In this document: piece after piece, positions 362-26,567 of the stretch
Layout of the letters: every line of letters starts with the position of its first letter
How positions within the stretch are numbered: the stretch's first letter is position 1
Virus record (IMG/VR): IMGVR_UViG_3300025759_000585
Location: 1-26,660 of that record
Length of the DNA: 26,660 bases
Strand: one strand, 5' to 3'
DNA from: a virus
Position numbers and translations under genes: made by a program
Notes under the pieces: model-generated
Told to the model about the DNA's origin: nothing
The model's database searches: none
What the model saw: the letters and a program-made list of their open reading frames with translations, nothing else

Positions 362-774
362 TTGTTTTGTGCTTTATTGTGAACATAGCGAGTGTATATC
401 AACGGAACTACATTCCAAAGGATAACACCAATAAGACAGAGTTTCAAGAACCCATATATCTCATCTAACATAGAATCAAAGAATCCATTATCCATCTCTT
501 CAGTTAGTTGTTGTTGTACGAGTTTCTGTACATCTCCTTCAGTGATAGCTTTTACTTTGTTAGCTAATCCCTTGTTCTCCTCCATTAATTTAGCACCCTC
601 TCCTATCCCCCATCCAAGAGCAGCACCACCAGCAGCAGGACCAGGACCACCTAAAGCACCTACAGTTGCTCCTCCTACACTTCCTGCTAACGGATAAAAA
701 GAAGCCTTGGAACATCCACCTAAAAGAACCAGAACCAACACTGGCAAGAAAAAAGATGGAGTCCAAGGCTTCAT
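358..774 (-). CDS. lipoprotein with C-terminal membrane span, u-spanin-like
   Basis: 138 residues. Residues 1-20 form a signal sequence ending in lipobox LLGGC (Cys21), predicting outer-membrane lipidation. Residues about 28-57 are a Gly/Ala-rich glycine-zipper stretch. Residues 60-105 look helical and charged. Residues about 109-128 form a second hydrophobic span, followed by a short basic tail. An N-terminal lipoprotein anchor plus a C-terminal inner-membrane helix is the topology of unimolecular spanins such as T1 gp11 (131 aa), which fuse inner and outer membranes at lysis. The position between scaffold and capsid genes is unusual for a lysis gene, and T7 itself has nothing like it there. 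A structural or superinfection role is also possible. The next ORF overlaps by ATGA. Confidence 0.6.
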   Translation of the reverse strand: MKPWTPSFFLPVLVLVLLGGCSKASFYPLAGSVGGATVGALGGPGPAAGGAALGWGIGEGAKLMEENKGLANKVKAITEGDVQKLVQQQLTEEMDNGFFDSMLDEIYGFLKLCLIGVILWNVVPLIYTRYVHNKAQNK

Positions 775-1579: not shown

Positions 1580-3142
1580 CTACTCTTCTTGTGGTTGTTG
1601 TTGTTGACTACTCATGTACTGCTCTTGTGCAGCATTGATAGCAGGTGCTACAGCAGGTTGACCTAACTTCATCATCATCTCTTGTTGTTGGGCTTGCTGC
1701 ATAGCTTGTTGAATTTCTTCTTCTGTCTTGATCAATCCTTCAGTCTCAATACCTAACGCTGTGGCTCTTCTTTTGAAGTAGTCAGATACATTAACATATT
1801 CTGCAACTGCTTGTGGACCAACGATCTGATTAGCACCTGCAAGGAATAGATCAAGCTTCTGTAAATCATTACCTCGTCCCAGTGCTTCAACACCAGTAAC
1901 AATAGTAGGTTTAACAATGTCTTTAGGTAACTTAGGAAGTCTTCCTTCTTTGCCCATCCTTGTCATTAACCTAGTAACGACAGGCATTTGAAACTCTTGT
2001 GACAATAAAGAATACAGTCCACCAAGTGCAGCTTCCAACTCTTGAGATAACATTCTTATCTCCTCTGCTGTTACTCGTTCTGCATCTCTGACTACACCAC
2101 TGTTCAATAGGAATGCCTGTGACAATCTATCACTTATTCCATTCATTACTCCTTGTGCAGTACGGAAGTCATTAAACTTATTAAGTTGTAAAACAGATAC
2201 ATCTCCGTCACTACCTTGTACGATTGCACCATTGGGAGATTCAGATAAAGTCTTAGCTCTAGTTGTACCGTTAGGATTAACCATGAACAATACCTTAGCT
2301 GCTGCTGCACTACCTTCGACTATCGCTTTTGTTAATGACTCTAAAGATTTAAGATCACCAATGTATTCCTCTACAAATCCACGACCATAATCTTCACCGT
2401 CTATCCTGGTATATCTAAGAGGTAGGAACGGAGTCTTATCGATAGGATACCTACCCTTTGACTCTTCAATAACAATTCCTTTTACATCTTGTTGTACTAC
2501 AAATTCATTACCTTCTCTAATTACAGAGGTGTACAGGTCACAACTATTCTCTTTTTCTTGACGATATACCTCTTCTCTTACAGACTCAGGTAACATCATC
2601 GGAGCAACAGTTTCTTTAATAGCTATGTGTGTTACATTACCCATTGGGTCTCTTTTTACACAGTACCTATCAAGTCTGAATACTCTCATCCCACCGTCAT
2701 CAGGTAAGTATAACAAAGTATTACCAGTGACCAATAGATTCTTTAACGCTTCAAATACTCCTACTCTAAATGCTTCTACTTCTACTTCTTGAGATACACT
2801 TCGTTCTACATCTGCTAGTGCTTTCTCTAAGTCAGATCGTAATTGCTCTCCTCCCTCTGGTCCTAACTCCTGCTTTGCTTTATCTAATTCATACCTGTCA
2901 ATAACAAGACGAAAGAATGGTGCGTTAGGTGGTAACAGTGCTAACAATAATTTAGAAGCTAGGTTGTTAACTCCTCTAGCTCCCACTCCTTGATATGGTG
3001 TATAGTATTTAGTAGCGTGACTATGACCATCAGGAGGCATTATGTAAGGTATTGTTAACTCAGATGAGGTTCTCCCTCTATCCAAGAAAGACCACCTTTG
3101 GTTCTCTAAAGAGTTGTATAGACCTTGTGCTGTTTCTTGCAT
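1580..3142 (-). CDS. portal / head-tail connector protein (gp8-like)
   Basis: 520 residues, close to T7 gp8 (536). The N-terminal half has the family signature: RTSSELTIPYIMPPDG (about residues 24-39), then YTPYQGVGARGVNNLASKLLLALLPPNAPFFRL. Residues 310-380 carry the 'SDRLSQAFLLNSGVVRDAERVTAEEIR' type segment seen in T7-like connectors. The C-terminus is Gln/Met-rich and low-complexity. The portal is the dodecameric ring at the capsid vertex through which DNA is packaged and ejected. The gene starts one base after the upstream 75-aa gene and ends 2 bases before scaffold, so these genes form one tight late operon. Confidence 0.95.
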   Translation of the reverse strand: MQETAQGLYNSLENQRWSFLDRGRTSSELTIPYIMPPDGHSHATKYYTPYQGVGARGVNNLASKLLLALLPPNAPFFRLVIDRYELDKAKQELGPEGGEQLRSDLEKALADVERSVSQEVEVEAFRVGVFEALKNLLVTGNTLLYLPDDGGMRVFRLDRYCVKRDPMGNVTHIAIKETVAPMMLPESVREEVYRQEKENSCDLYTSVIREGNEFVVQQDVKGIVIEESKGRYPIDKTPFLPLRYTRIDGEDYGRGFVEEYIGDLKSLESLTKAIVEGSAAAAKVLFMVNPNGTTRAKTLSESPNGAIVQGSDGDVSVLQLNKFNDFRTAQGVMNGISDRLSQAFLLNSGVVRDAERVTAEEIRMLSQELEAALGGLYSLLSQEFQMPVVTRLMTRMGKEGRLPKLPKDIVKPTIVTGVEALGRGNDLQKLDLFLAGANQIVGPQAVAEYVNVSDYFKRRATALGIETEGLIKTEEEIQQAMQQAQQQEMMMKLGQPAVAPAINAAQEQYMSSQQQQPQEE

Positions 3143-3143
3143 A

Positions 3144-3371
3144 TTACTCAGGGACAGGTGGTGACCATTCGTCAGTCGCTAGAATAGCTAATATTTCAGA
3201 GTGGGAATAAATTGTTTTGCCTTCAAGAAAACTAGGAACATCCCCTTCAAACTTCACGAAGAATTTAGTACCATCGACTGAGTATCTAAGAGTGTCAGAA
3301 GAAGTTTGAAGTACTTGATCGAAGTCTACGCTGGATACCTCGGAGGAATTTATTATACAGTATGTTCTCAT
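3144..3371 (-). CDS. 75-aa protein, paralogue of the 77-aa gene at 4211-4444
   Basis: Small acidic protein that lines up end to end with the product of 4211-4444: both carry SSEVSSVDF or SDEVSSVDF, then RYSVD, FVKF, PSFL-GKT, SHSEIL or THSEIL and LATDEW, and end in a Pro/Glu tail. I recognise the type from marine T7-like phage structural regions but know no function. It directly follows a LamG gene, as its paralogue does, so it probably works with that protein as a virion component or assembly partner. One base separates its stop codon from the portal start. Confidence 0.8.
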   Translation of the reverse strand: MRTYCIINSSEVSSVDFDQVLQTSSDTLRYSVDGTKFFVKFEGDVPSFLEGKTIYSHSEILAILATDEWSPPVPE

Positions 3372-3380
3372 CGTCTTAAA

Positions 3381-4208
3381 TTACGGGGTATTGTTTTGGT
3401 AAGCAGGGCTAGAAACCATAGTTATATTGTTATTAAAGGCACTCATGTCATAGATAGTCGTACCGCTGTTCGCTTCCGTTCCGTCACCCATTCTCCACCA
3501 CGCTTTAGGGTTGAAACTTAGTAGGTTACTAGGTGTGCCGCTATTATAAATCGTACTGATATTGGATGACTGATCGGAGTCCCAAACGGCTACTTCGTCT
3601 ATGTTGCCTGTGAAGAAATTCCCAGCAGACGTTCTTACATGAGAACCGATATTAGTTGAAGTTAAGTTAGTAAGATCACCATACCAAGTACCATCATTAT
3701 TACTATTTGTGAGAGTCTCTGCTGACCCGTCTACATACAAACTGTAAGCAGCTCCGTCAGATACAGCTACTACATGATGCCAATTCCCATCGTTAATAGT
3801 GGTTGATCCATCGGCAGTTTTTACAGTCCCCATACTTTCTCTAAATGTAATCCTTAATTTATTATTGTAGACTGCCATCCAACCCCAAGTACCTCCCACT
3901 GAAGTGTCTGCTGTGGAGACGATAGCTTGGTATGCTGTGCTTGTTGTTTTTATCCAAGCAGAAATTGTACCACTATTGGCTGAAGGAGTGACAACAGAAC
4001 CAGCATCCAATCGATCATCTGTACCGTCAAAGTTTAATGAGTAATCGTTAATGCCTGACCATCCTGACGCAACATCACTGACGAAACCTCGCCAATTTGC
4101 ACCGTCATAGATGATGTAGTTCTGTGTGTCCGTTTCAAAGTAAGCATCTCCTGTCGAGGGTGAACCTGGACGAGTTGATGAAGTGATTGATGGAATTGTA
4201 GTTGGCAT
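3381..4208 (-). CDS. LamG / concanavalin-like domain protein, second copy
   Basis: 275 residues. The N-terminus (PGSPSTGDAYFETDTQNYIIYDGANW) is a tail-fibre-like head motif used for virion attachment. Residues about 55-215 form a LamG/concanavalin-type jelly roll: YSLNFDGTDDRLDAG, ISAWIKTTS, NWHHVVAVSDGAAYSLYVDG, and GNIDEVAVWDSDQSS. The C-terminus has WWRMGDG and matches the C-terminus of the larger protein at 4449-5843. Such domains bind carbohydrate or glycoprotein, so I infer a virion-surface adhesin. There is no signal peptide. It lacks the approximately 200-residue N-terminal extension of its paralogue. Confidence 0.82.
   Translation of the reverse strand: MPTTIPSITSSTRPGSPSTGDAYFETDTQNYIIYDGANWRGFVSDVASGWSGINDYSLNFDGTDDRLDAGSVVTPSANSGTISAWIKTTSTAYQAIVSTADTSVGGTWGWMAVYNNKLRITFRESMGTVKTADGSTTINDGNWHHVVAVSDGAAYSLYVDGSAETLTNSNNDGTWYGDLTNLTSTNIGSHVRTSAGNFFTGNIDEVAVWDSDQSSNISTIYNSGTPSNLLSFNPKAWWRMGDGTEANSGTTIYDMSAFNNNITMVSSPAYQNNTP
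3418..3436 (-). repeat. 19-bp exact repeat, copy inside the LamG gene
   Basis: The minus strand reads TTAATAACAATATAACTAT here, within the codons for the last residues of the LamG protein. The identical 19-mer occurs at 6174-6192 in an intergenic leader. A promoter, a recombination scar or chance in AT-rich DNA are all possible. Confidence 0.55.
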
Positions 4209-4210
4209 AA

Positions 4211-4444
4211 TTAAATGGGTTCGTCAGGTGTCCACTCATCCGTTGCTAATACATTTAGAATTTCAGAGTGTGTGTATTGTGTTTTACCGTCTAGAAAAGA
4301 TGGTGTTGAGTCTGAATCGAACTTAACAAAAGTCTGACTATTATCGACGGAGTATCTCATGGTATCTGCACTTGTCTCTTCGACTTGGCTAAAATCCACG
4401 GAACTAACTTCGTCCGAATCTATTATTACATATTTTCTACTCAT
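4211..4444 (-). CDS. 77-aa protein, paralogue of the 75-aa gene at 3144-3371
   Basis: Small acidic protein starting MSRKYVIIDSDEVSSVDFSQ. It shares about half its residues with the 75-aa product, including VSSVDF, DTMRYSVD or DTLRYSVD, FVKF, PSFL-GKT, HSEIL and LATDEW. It lies between the two LamG genes, 4 bases after the first and 2 bases before the second. The repeated pairing with a LamG gene argues for a joint role, perhaps chaperone, linker or co-assembling subunit; this is inference. No Shine-Dalgarno site is visible. Confidence 0.8.
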   Translation of the reverse strand: MSRKYVIIDSDEVSSVDFSQVEETSADTMRYSVDNSQTFVKFDSDSTPSFLDGKTQYTHSEILNVLATDEWTPDEPI

Positions 4445-4448
4445 AATT

Positions 4449-5843
4449 TTAAGATGGTACTGTTGTTGAGAAGGTTGCTCCGTTAGTTAGCGTGCCGTTA
4501 TTACCTCCGCTACCTTGGTCTGTTATAGTTGTACCTGAGCCTGAGTTATTGTCTCCCATTCTCCACCAACCGACAGGGCTGAAAGTCTTTAGATCACCAG
4601 GTACACCATTAGTTCCCCCACTTCCTCCGTTTGCTTCACCTTTATAAATGTTAGTAACTTGAGACGCAGATAATGCTGTGTTAAAAACAGCTACTTCGTC
4701 TATTAAACCATCGAAATGTGCTGAATCGTTGGTCGCACTACCAAACCTTAAATTTCCATTTGCTGTGTTGGTTGTTGTGGTTGGTGCTGTAGTCGAGTCT
4801 ACTAATGAACCGTCCACATACAATGCGAGTATTCCCCCCGATGCTGTGCAAGTGATAGCATAATGATGCCAATTCGTGTCCGTTATTCCGTTAGCTACTA
4901 TAATGTCCGTATTCACGCTATCCGCTGAAAACAACACTCTTAAATCTTTACTACTGCCTGTTACACTTCGATTGTCGTAAAACAAATATAAGCCGTAGGA
5001 ACTGGAGGTGTAGTTGTTACTTACAAATCCTTGCAAAGCATTGGCGTTAACATTATCAACTTTTAACCAGACGCTCACAGTGAACACACAACTCTGCTGA
5101 ATAAAATCAAACTTATCGGGAGTTTCAATGTAGTCATCACTGCCGTCAAGTGAAACTGAATAACTGTTGAATGGCGTGTCATTAAAAATCAGCCAAGCAG
5201 TTCCGTTATAAATATAAAAATCACCTGTGTCCGTACCAAATGCGATGTTAACTTCGTCCGTTGGATTAGTTGGTGTACTAGCTAAAATGTTTGCTTCGGT
5301 ATTTCGAGTGGTGACATTGAATATGGCGATTGTATCTAACACAGTACCTGTAGCGTTAGCTGTAGTAAATGTATTAGAACTAACACTAACTGTCTTACCA
5401 CTTTGTACTGAAGAAGCGTTAGTTAAATCAAAAGTAATAACAGTATCTGAACCTGTAGGTAGACTCTGCCCACCTGCTACTGTTAAAACTAAAGTACCTG
5501 TTGACTGTGTCCATGAACCACTTGACCCAAAGATTGCAGCTCCTGCTCCACCTACTGTTAACGAAGCATTGTTAGCTGTTTGAGTCCCTTGCATTCCTGT
5601 TAAAGTCAAAGTACCACCAGCTGCTATTGCCACTGAAGGTTGGACTGTAAAGGTTATTGTATCAGCTGAACCTATAGCGTTAGTGTCTGTATCTGCTACC
5701 GTTAAAGTAGTGAATGTATTAGCAGGAGCTACAGCTGTAGAATCAAACCCATACAAAGCACCAAAGATAGGTCTTAGTAAATTAGACGGTTTAGACCTTA
5801 GCTCACTCGGTTTATCGAGTTGCTCTGTAAAGATCAAAGACAT
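4449..5843 (-). CDS. large LamG / concanavalin-like domain protein, first copy
   Basis: 464 residues. The start (MSLIFTEQLDKPSELRSKPS) looks like a virion-anchoring segment. Residues about 40-170 are Thr/Ser/Gly/Ala-rich and beta-like, with ITFTVQP and VITFDL repeats resembling Ig-like stalk domains. Residues about 205-220 repeat the FGTDTGDFYIYNGTAW attachment motif. Residues 228-400 are a LamG fold: YSVSLDGSDDYIETP, FTVSVWLKVDN, NWHHYAITCTASG, LALYVDGSLVDS and DGLIDEVAVFNTALSA. It ends with a WWRMGDN domain shared with 3381-4208. Probable surface adhesin or head fibre binding host glycans. Its Asn/Thr/Gly richness is unlike the replication genes. Confidence 0.85.
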   Translation of the reverse strand: MSLIFTEQLDKPSELRSKPSNLLRPIFGALYGFDSTAVAPANTFTTLTVADTDTNAIGSADTITFTVQPSVAIAAGGTLTLTGMQGTQTANNASLTVGGAGAAIFGSSGSWTQSTGTLVLTVAGGQSLPTGSDTVITFDLTNASSVQSGKTVSVSSNTFTTANATGTVLDTIAIFNVTTRNTEANILASTPTNPTDEVNIAFGTDTGDFYIYNGTAWLIFNDTPFNSYSVSLDGSDDYIETPDKFDFIQQSCVFTVSVWLKVDNVNANALQGFVSNNYTSSSYGLYLFYDNRSVTGSSKDLRVLFSADSVNTDIIVANGITDTNWHHYAITCTASGGILALYVDGSLVDSTTAPTTTTNTANGNLRFGSATNDSAHFDGLIDEVAVFNTALSASQVTNIYKGEANGGSGGTNGVPGDLKTFSPVGWWRMGDNNSGSGTTITDQGSGGNNGTLTNGATFSTTVPS

Positions 5844-5847
5844 CTAA

Positions 5848-6165
5848 TTAAAGAGAGTCAGTAGAACCTGTTGCGTATACGCTGTAAGTACCGTCAGTTC
5901 TAGCTGATAGGTTACCTCTTATTTGTTCGTAGTGTCCGTGATCGTCTCTGACCATTACAGCACCGTTAGCTGTTACATCTTCAGAGTGAATGACATACCA
6001 AGCACCACCGATGTAGGCTTCTATGTCTACCGTACCTCCTGAAGTTACTGATGAAGAAGCGATTACAAAGGTCCAACCCTTAGAACGCTCTACTGAGAAT
6101 GAACTGCCAGCCCCTGTCGCTGTGACAGATGATAGCAAAGTCTTTTTTGAGAGTGTGCGAAGCAT
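5848..6165 (-). CDS. putative virion structural protein, beta-rich
   Basis: 105 residues, no family recognised with certainty. Composition is Ser/Thr/Gly/Val-rich with alternating hydrophobic residues (WTFVIASSSVTSGGTVDIEA, then GGAWYVIHSEDVTANGAVMV), indicating a small beta-sandwich. There is no signal peptide or membrane span. It is 4 bases upstream of the large LamG gene in the same operon, so a decoration protein, fibre adaptor or head-fibre subunit is the likeliest role. The leader is AT-only with no Shine-Dalgarno site and contains a copy of the 19-bp repeat. Confidence 0.65.
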   Translation of the reverse strand: MLRTLSKKTLLSSVTATGAGSSFSVERSKGWTFVIASSSVTSGGTVDIEAYIGGAWYVIHSEDVTANGAVMVRDDHGHYEQIRGNLSARTDGTYSVYATGSTDSL

Positions 6166-24695: not shown

Positions 24696-26567
24696 TTATG
24701 CTGATATTGCTGAACCTGGGGTTGCTAATACTTTCCAAGAACCACCTAACCCTGCCTCTCCTGTGTACATTGCTAGACAAATAGAACCAGAGTTCCCATT
24801 AGATACAACTGCAACTTGACCTTCTATCGCACCATCTGCCGCTGTTAAAGCGTTCATTTCTGCTACTGTACCACCTGCTAAAGTTATGTTTCTACCAAAC
24901 ACTGCAAATGCTTGTGTACTAGGTGCATCTTGAAAACCAAACCTTAATGCTTTTGAGTTAAGGGACAGAGCAATTTCTGTAGGAGTACCTGTCTCATCTG
25001 TATCTTCAAAGAATAGTTGAGTAGCAGTTCCTTTAAGTTTTACCTTTGTTGCAGTAAGATCGTAACCAGATTCATTAAGAGTGCCTATTCCCACACCACT
25101 GTTAACATAGTTTAACTCAGTATCCGTAGAACTAACTTTTGCAGCTGTAACAACACCGTCTGAAAGCGTAAGAGCAGTAGCACCTGTAACATCTCCTGTA
25201 TGAGTAGCATTAGTAACCTTAGCTGTGTTGGCAGTAACAGCAGTATTATTACTTACCTCTGTATCAAAGTCTGTAATGTTAGAAGCTGTGTGAGTATGTG
25301 AAGCAGCTGCGAAAGCTGTAGCCTCTTGACCATCTAACAAGTCAGCATCCAACCCACTACCTGCACCATCAACAGTTTTAATTGAAGTTAATATTTCAGA
25401 TGCAGATTGATCAGCTGTAGCTCCGTTCTCTACATTTAGAACAGTTCTTACTTCAGCTGCTGTTAGAGCTTGCGGAGCAGCACTACTGCCACTATCATTG
25501 CCTAGTAAAGTGTTATTGGCAATATTTTCTATACTAGATAAAGTAAGACCAGCTGAAACAGGAACTGAGTAACCTCTTTGTATAACTACAATGTTAGAAG
25601 TGTTAGGAGGAGCACTAGTGAAAGTAATTGTGTTTGCTGTGGAGTCTATAGCATAGGCAACGGTAGGTTCTTGCATTACACCATCAATAGCTACTTCATA
25701 CATCGTATCACCGTTTAAATCAATCCCTGGACTAAATGTAAAAGCAGTTGTAGAACCATTACCTGCAAAAGTGTATTTAGACGAAGCAGTGGAAGACCCT
25801 GTTATTTGATTGGATATTTGCTGATTAACATAATCTTCAGAAGCCCCAGAAAAAGATAGACCATCAGCGTATGATTTATTTACTGCATCAGTTGTTGCTG
25901 TGGGAGTAGCTAGACCTGTGATCTTATTACTTCCCATTGCTAACTCACCAGTCATAGAGTCCCCTGCCTTAGCTACCTTTAAAGCATCCGCAGCAATTCT
26001 CGCACTTTCCTCTGCACTAACAGCAGCAATCCTAGCAGTCTCTTCAGTGTCTACATCTGCAACTCTAGCTGTTCTTTCAGTAGTAATTTCATTATCCACA
26101 TAGTTCTTAGTGGCAGCATCCTGTGCAAGAGTAGGATCAGCTACATCAACAATCTTAGCTAAGTCAGCTTCAAAGTTACCAGCACTGTTCTTAGTCATTA
26201 CATTCTTACCACTACCTTCTTCTATCTCTTCATTCAGATATAAGTTATGTAAGTAAGCACGGTCTAGTTCTACTTCAGTAAGTACACTACCATTCTCAAA
26301 GTCTACAAGAGCAGTATTAGATGCACTGTCTCTTTTAATTCTTATCCTGTCACCTGTCGCTGGAGCACTGTTAAATATAATAGCACTGGAAGGAGAAGTT
26401 TGTATGGTGTAATCAGTGGTCAATGCCTTAGTAACAAAAGCACCACCTGATACACTCGCTTGATCTACTTGTACTACAACATGAGAGTCATCAAGATAAG
26501 GAAATGAAAAAGCAAAAGAGGTAGTTGAATTGTCCCCTGTGTGATCTGCGAATGTTTGAATACTCAT
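24696..26567 (-). CDS. tail fibre protein (T7 gp17-like N-terminus)
   Basis: 623 residues. Residues 1-155 match the T7 fibre N-terminal domain, which joins the tail: MSIQTFADHTGDNSTTSFAF, SFPYLDDSHVVVQVD, DRIRIKRDSAS, FENGSVLTEVELDRAYLHNLYLNEE (in parts) and DPTLAQDAATKNYVDNEI. A second similar beta domain begins about residue 265 (YTFAGNGSTTAFTFSPG). Coiled Glu/Arg/Ala repeats (ERTARVADVDTEETARIAAV) and AVNKSYADG linkers lie between. The C-terminal part has HTHTASNITDFDTEVSNNTA and a final globular region for receptor contact. It defines host range. There is no Shine-Dalgarno site. Confidence 0.92.
   Translation of the reverse strand: MSIQTFADHTGDNSTTSFAFSFPYLDDSHVVVQVDQASVSGGAFVTKALTTDYTIQTSPSSAIIFNSAPATGDRIRIKRDSASNTALVDFENGSVLTEVELDRAYLHNLYLNEEIEEGSGKNVMTKNSAGNFEADLAKIVDVADPTLAQDAATKNYVDNEITTERTARVADVDTEETARIAAVSAEESARIAADALKVAKAGDSMTGELAMGSNKITGLATPTATTDAVNKSYADGLSFSGASEDYVNQQISNQITGSSTASSKYTFAGNGSTTAFTFSPGIDLNGDTMYEVAIDGVMQEPTVAYAIDSTANTITFTSAPPNTSNIVVIQRGYSVPVSAGLTLSSIENIANNTLLGNDSGSSAAPQALTAAEVRTVLNVENGATADQSASEILTSIKTVDGAGSGLDADLLDGQEATAFAAASHTHTASNITDFDTEVSNNTAVTANTAKVTNATHTGDVTGATALTLSDGVVTAAKVSSTDTELNYVNSGVGIGTLNESGYDLTATKVKLKGTATQLFFEDTDETGTPTEIALSLNSKALRFGFQDAPSTQAFAVFGRNITLAGGTVAEMNALTAADGAIEGQVAVVSNGNSGSICLAMYTGEAGLGGSWKVLATPGSAISA

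Follow-up and report, generated by a model that had tools for sequence, protein, structure and literature searches.

Two genes for LamG-domain proteins, each followed by a gene for a small acidic protein, lie directly before the portal gene of a T7-like phage, and they raise the questions of what such a pair does and how two of them came to stand side by side. The window, by which we mean the whole stretch of DNA analyzed, is a virus record of 26,660 bases (IMGVR_UViG_3300025759_000585). Pfam matches to PF00940, PF21268, PF00476, PF22530, PF12236 and PF03906 place it in the Autographiviridae, and genes for a single-subunit RNA polymerase, a T7-type helicase-primase, a DNA polymerase A, a T7-type terminase, scaffold, portal and tail fibre can be recognized. 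Its closest cultured relatives are Pelagibacter, Roseobacter and related marine autographiviruses. LamG genes are absent from the matching place in HTVC019P, CRP-113 and KM23-C739, where only small hypothetical genes were found, and T7 is not known to have any between 6.7 and the portal gene. The T7 stretch at the same genome position encodes virion and assembly proteins, gp6.7 and gp7.3, and T7 particles assembled in the absence of gp7.3 do not adsorb (PMC11784390), which makes the portal-adjacent site a plausible place for virion genes.

The four ORFs described in an earlier, sequence-only reading of this DNA are present on the minus strand, with the portal gene next and only a few nucleotides separating the members of the block (Table 1). 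Both large proteins carry the LamG domains attributed to them, scoring 93 and 68.6 bits against a PF13385 gathering cut-off of 27.6, and belong with the Laminin_G_3/ConA-like domains of phage adhesins. The small proteins are, as had also been proposed, acidic and paralogous to each other, and the mean net charge over members of their family is -8.4.

Table 1. Positions of genes and protein segments at the LamG locus, with related features (positions are those of the window unless a locus or amino acids are named).
Feature	Position	Strand	Description
Portal (head-tail connector) gene	1580..3142	-	3' border of locus; PF12236 E 2.1e-85, phrog_449 E 5.5e-181
Small partner B	3144..3371	-	75 aa; 67% identity to partner A, E 5.3e-29
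LamG B	3381..4208	-	275 aa; PF13385 E 8.4e-19
LamG B head motif	aa 1-56
LamG B core	aa 57-232
LamG B C-terminal tail	aa 233-275
Small partner A	4211..4444	-	77 aa, acidic; predicted-model pLDDT 85.6
LamG A	4449..5843	-	464 aa; PF13385 E 2.6e-26
LamG A anchor	aa 1-44
LamG A Ig-like beta region	aa ~45-190
LamG A head motif	aa ~191-224
LamG A core	aa ~225-418
LamG A C-terminal tail	aa ~419-464		conserved, WWRMGD...TVPS
D105, conserved 105-aa protein	5848..6165	-	5' border of variable locus
T7-type tail fibre (gp17-like)	24696..26567	-	PF03906 E 1.8e-25; apart from cassettes
Short protein before adhesin locus	L055:6471-6836, L061:4673-5026, L017:5703-5960		hhalign

The head motif (GD-Y--T-----YIYDG-W) is shared by the two LamG proteins, as the earlier reading stated. 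Its suggested role as a virion-attachment segment was not supported for LamG A, because a conserved anchor occupies the N-terminus of that protein and Ig-like proteins that stand alone carry the motif at their C-terminus. Here LamG is fused to the anchor and to the Ig-like part, whereas loci L073, L103, L039 and L222 encode these parts in separate genes, which suggests that their products are part of one structure. The predicted model of LamG A is of moderate confidence (pLDDT 70) and matches pentraxin/ConA-like jelly rolls; its matches to pentraxins and to the receptor-binding domains of clostridial neurotoxins were set aside as functional clues, since they reflect a common fold and not a function. 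Over the last 54 residues the mean pLDDT is 82-96 per 10-residue block, and the tail is therefore probably a folded part of the LamG domain; the tail profile had no match in the PDB. What sets these proteins apart from other Laminin_G_3/ConA-like adhesins is the recurring C-terminal WWRMGD...VPS tail together with a near-obligate small neighbour. The core and C-terminal tail are also matched by phrog_347, named "tail terminator", a name that may be wrong for its LamG-matching members.

How general the pairing is was assessed in 122 loci, with contained duplicates removed, that hold 129 small ORFs. By profile, a LamG gene lies directly before the small gene in 122 of the 126 cases with a readable upstream ORF, the other four being one LamG-like upstream ORF end (immuto) and three copies of a single recombination scar. 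A Pfam scan found PF13385 in 92 of 95 proteins upstream of small genes, and the gaps between the two genes are mostly -4 to +17 nt. In the converse direction, where the searches favour close relatives, a small gene directly follows 81 of 86 LamG ORFs found by the C-terminal motif, and 30 of 85 that were retrieved by their likeness to LamG B, some of which are remote LamG proteins lacking the motif. Presence of the tail is associated with presence of the small gene (156/18/19/36, p 3e-15, in a table partly seeded with small genes; 67/16/9/30 for LamG-seeded loci only), and in several of the cases with a tail and no partner the LamG gene is followed by another LamG gene. A few small genes (those of L077, L096, L116 and L123) are missed by a simple ORF caller and are present by other searches.

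The idea of a two-component unit is thus borne out as near-obligate adjacency, and the counter-case named with it, small genes that never accompany LamG genes in relatives, does not occur. The fixed 1:1 pairing that had been assumed fails in two ways. One small gene can serve a cluster of two LamG genes, a LamG copy without a small gene of its own standing beside one that has it (L115, L145, L151 and L183), and in L222 an unrelated 85-aa ORF (L222:5414-5668), for which no phage match was found, fills the slot after the LamG gene. Other ORFs of 76-90 aa follow LamG adhesins in L245 and L248. No fusion of LamG and small protein was found among 337 LamG and 263 small ORFs.

The small family has at least 551 relatives in viral contigs, nearly all of them from metagenomes, whereas a search of 84,980 bacterial and archaeal genomes yielded it in only 5 contigs; the cultured phages found to carry the gene are S-SKS1 and the Flavobacterium phages "immuto". 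No family match was obtained in Pfam, PHROGs, NCBIfam, PADLOC or PDB sequence searches. The structure is predicted with confidence (pTM 0.67 in addition to the pLDDT in Table 1), and good fold matches in BFVD are mainly uncharacterized viral proteins of similar size, mostly from phages where a source is named. Against the PDB no fold match had E <1, leaving only weak Foldseek/VIA rows; RRM, PII and ferredoxin-like folds were considered and rejected, the best VIA Z of 3.7 being at noise level.

The LamG proteins vary in a segment-specific way between phages that are otherwise nearly identical. In the sister phage L070, the portal and D105 are each 99% identical to those of the window, the anchor 91% and the Ig-like part 97%, while the members of pair A reach 39% (LamG core), 78% (tail) and 90% (small protein), and those of pair B 28%, 51% and 79%, respectively. 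Across sister phages D105 is 93-99% identical, against 28-44% for the LamG cores of the same phages; the locus is thus a variable region set in a near-identical backbone. No homology could be detected between D105 and an 86-aa protein encoded ahead of the cassette in other phages. In 202 pairs of loci whose downstream genes share at least 85% identity, the small proteins have a mean identity of 0.80, the tails of 0.67 and the cores of 0.35, and the cores fall below 50% identity in 97% of the pairs. The small protein tracks neither the core (rho 0.13) nor the tail (rho 0.09) closely, which gives it the appearance of a generic partner. Co-evolution of small protein and tail was rejected as a sign of a specific interface, since the correlation is weak and 9 of 200 permutations were as high.

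To account for these patterns we propose, with a probability of about one in two, that the LamG proteins are swappable accessory virion adhesins served by a generic, chaperone-like small partner. The interval from D105 to the portal gene would be a hypervariable accessory-adhesin locus, in which the N-terminal part of the LamG protein is kept for virion attachment, the core forms an exchangeable receptor- or glycan-binding face and the C-terminal tail is a conserved end. The small gene would provide, as a separate chain, an assembly or maturation partner for the constant part of the LamG protein, outside the binding face, much as Tfa/gp38-type chaperones do for tail fibres, and the cassettes would be gathered and exchanged among phages through recombination. 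Virion presence, glycan binding and chaperone action of the pair are what we infer here, and glycan binding and virion attachment of the LamG proteins fit the domain-swap pattern plausibly. A chaperone-like role is preferred because the partner hardly tracks the core, is never fused and can be shared by two LamG genes; the lack of fusions carries weight by contrast with the anchor and Ig-like parts, which occur both fused and separate.

Adhesin genes followed by a helper gene are already known, and the LamG gene with its 75-aa partner is a new and widespread variant of that arrangement. In phages V22 (gp26/gp27; PMC7289586) and Pam3 (gp24/gp25; PMC9608196), a receptor-binding protein is followed by its chaperone. 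The present pairs resemble these, and Tfa and T4 gp38, in that a small gene lies directly downstream of an adhesin gene (122/126; 81/86) and in that such chaperones serve fibres with a variable binding end (PMC7289586, PMC9608196). Unlike the Tfa/gp38-type proteins of ~20-22 kDa, the small partner is only 75 aa long, is tied to LamG, has no sequence or fold match to them that we could find, although kinship may escape such searches, and is better conserved than its client. At the level of the locus, the closest likeness is to the variable (metaviromic) islands of marine phages, known for their many lectin-like genes (PMC3909814), and to host-recognition clusters; these are likewise hypervariable, hold many genes with a putative carbohydrate-binding or lectin-like product and occur in phages that otherwise resemble each other (PMC3909814, PMC7029224). 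The site here differs in lying directly before the portal gene of a T7-like phage, and a text search of the two papers gave no mention of LamG, nor was a paired small gene found in them. Searches of the literature returned no prior description of the LamG/small pair, a weak negative because they covered open-access texts only.

If the proposal is correct, unrelated phages would exchange host-recognition proteins by means of a simple two-gene unit, and a widespread marine phage protein family with no name would gain a function. A more specific version, which we put forward tentatively, is that the 75-aa protein is a mobile, generic factor for the maturation of LamG-type phage adhesins and the founding family of its kind; a single conserved partner could then serve many LamG faces on unrelated phages, and the two-gene cassette could pass from one phage family to another. 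To judge from the portal-adjacent locus, T7-like phages may also be able to carry several adhesins in addition to the tail fibre, a point that matters for host prediction in uncultured phages.

The serious rival is that the small protein is a stoichiometric structural subunit, forming a tip, cap or base on the conserved part of LamG, and we regard this as a real possibility. It would explain why adjacency is nearly fixed, why the core is so much less conserved than either the partner or the tail, and why the partner is predicted to fold into a compact, stable structure. Most of the patterns described above would indeed be expected of a stable tip or cap subunit, and the chaperone-like role has further points against it: searches showed no sequence or fold link to known chaperones, and 75 aa is far below the size of Tfa, gp38 and V22 gp27 (20-22 kDa). 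The tail as a docking site for the partner is also open to objection, since it is confidently folded in the model and may simply belong to the LamG fold. What speaks against a structural subunit is the absence of a LamG fusion in several hundred ORFs, the single small gene common to two LamG genes, and the unrelated ORF in the slot of L222.

Rather unlikely, and compatible with either role for the small protein because it concerns place, is that LamG decorates the virion, with the small protein helping or capping it. In its favour, a T7-type tail fibre is already present, part of LamG A is Ig-like, and an additional, Ig-like minor capsid protein sits at the vertices of the T7-like phage Peru-2, where it apparently touches the flagella of the host (PMC13320782). 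Connections to the tail point the other way: the LamG domain ends a 1453-aa protein in L042, LamG lies within proteins annotated as baseplate/tail-fibre connector or carbohydrate-binding module in S-H68/S-B05, and genes of the same locus in relatives match tail and tail-fibre families.

That the small protein is a regulator or anti-host protein hitchhiking in the cassette, with no partnership with LamG, is improbable. Its family has no known function and shares a predicted fold with uncharacterized viral proteins of similar size, which leaves room for such a role, but no PADLOC defence-system model matches it, and at least four phage architectures have the small gene behind LamG, with no instance found away from LamG.

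As for the origin of the two pairs, sequence comparisons indicate that they are cassettes in a recombining adhesin locus and not a local tandem duplication; under recombinational exchange they would be two adhesins collected side by side. Among all ORFs collected, LamG B comes only 174th among the core matches of LamG A, LamG A holds rank 140 for LamG B and small B rank 99 among the matches of small A, and the fourth rank is 71, so that the pairs are not mutual closest relatives. L017, whose phage architecture is a different one, has an Ig-like part with 62% identity to that of LamG A, and in a tree of proteins too short for resolving the history of the copies, small A clusters with L070 and L017 at modest support (96/79). 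For LamG B, the best relatives of the head are not those of the core, which points to mosaic assembly. The paralogy claimed in the sequence-only reading therefore stands while its local duplication and divergence in this lineage is highly improbable, for although both members of the pairs are paralogous and short repeats (71-73% identity, 1067-1068 nt apart) link their corresponding parts, each pair has many closer relatives elsewhere, those of the LamG A Ig-like part and small A include L017, and type-B pairs stand second in several phages.

The architectures that carry the cassette are T7-like phages, in which it precedes the portal gene (46 loci with this portal type); other podovirus-like contigs, some from Verrucomicrobiota genome bins, in which it precedes a lipoprotein gene and a holin-like gene; GroEL-bearing contigs of another type; large cultured phages; and also L042. 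A likely trace of movement between two of these settings is preserved in L022 (8238-8381), L024 and L025 as a scar ORF of 48 codons that joins a portal start to the 3' end of a small gene and is followed by the lipoprotein gene. Its portal part covers the first ~66 nt and is 95% identical to L008, its small-gene part is 97% identical to L011 over 63 nt, and the two overlap by ~14 nt at the joint. Lysis-site phages match L022 at up to 94% identity in its flanks but not in its cassette region. Read most simply, these sequences record the transfer of a cassette out of the portal site in one type of phage and into the lysis site in another.

In two unrelated phage types, the adhesin locus is preceded by members of one short-protein family, perhaps virion proteins (hhalign probability 94%; Table 1), to which D105 of the window shows no detectable relation. 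In the portal-site loci L073 (1603-3648) and L103, a suite of fibre-like genes and a 68-aa gene precede the LamG cassette, and lysis-site phages carry almost the same set. The window also encodes a glycine-rich lipoprotein (361-774) between the scaffold and capsid genes; a lipoprotein of similar-looking type lies directly 3' of the LamG cassette in other phages. Finally, Shine-Dalgarno-like motifs precede the start codons of 3 of the 34 window genes, against 17% at random positions, and this rarity could reflect a host group in which such motifs are not used.
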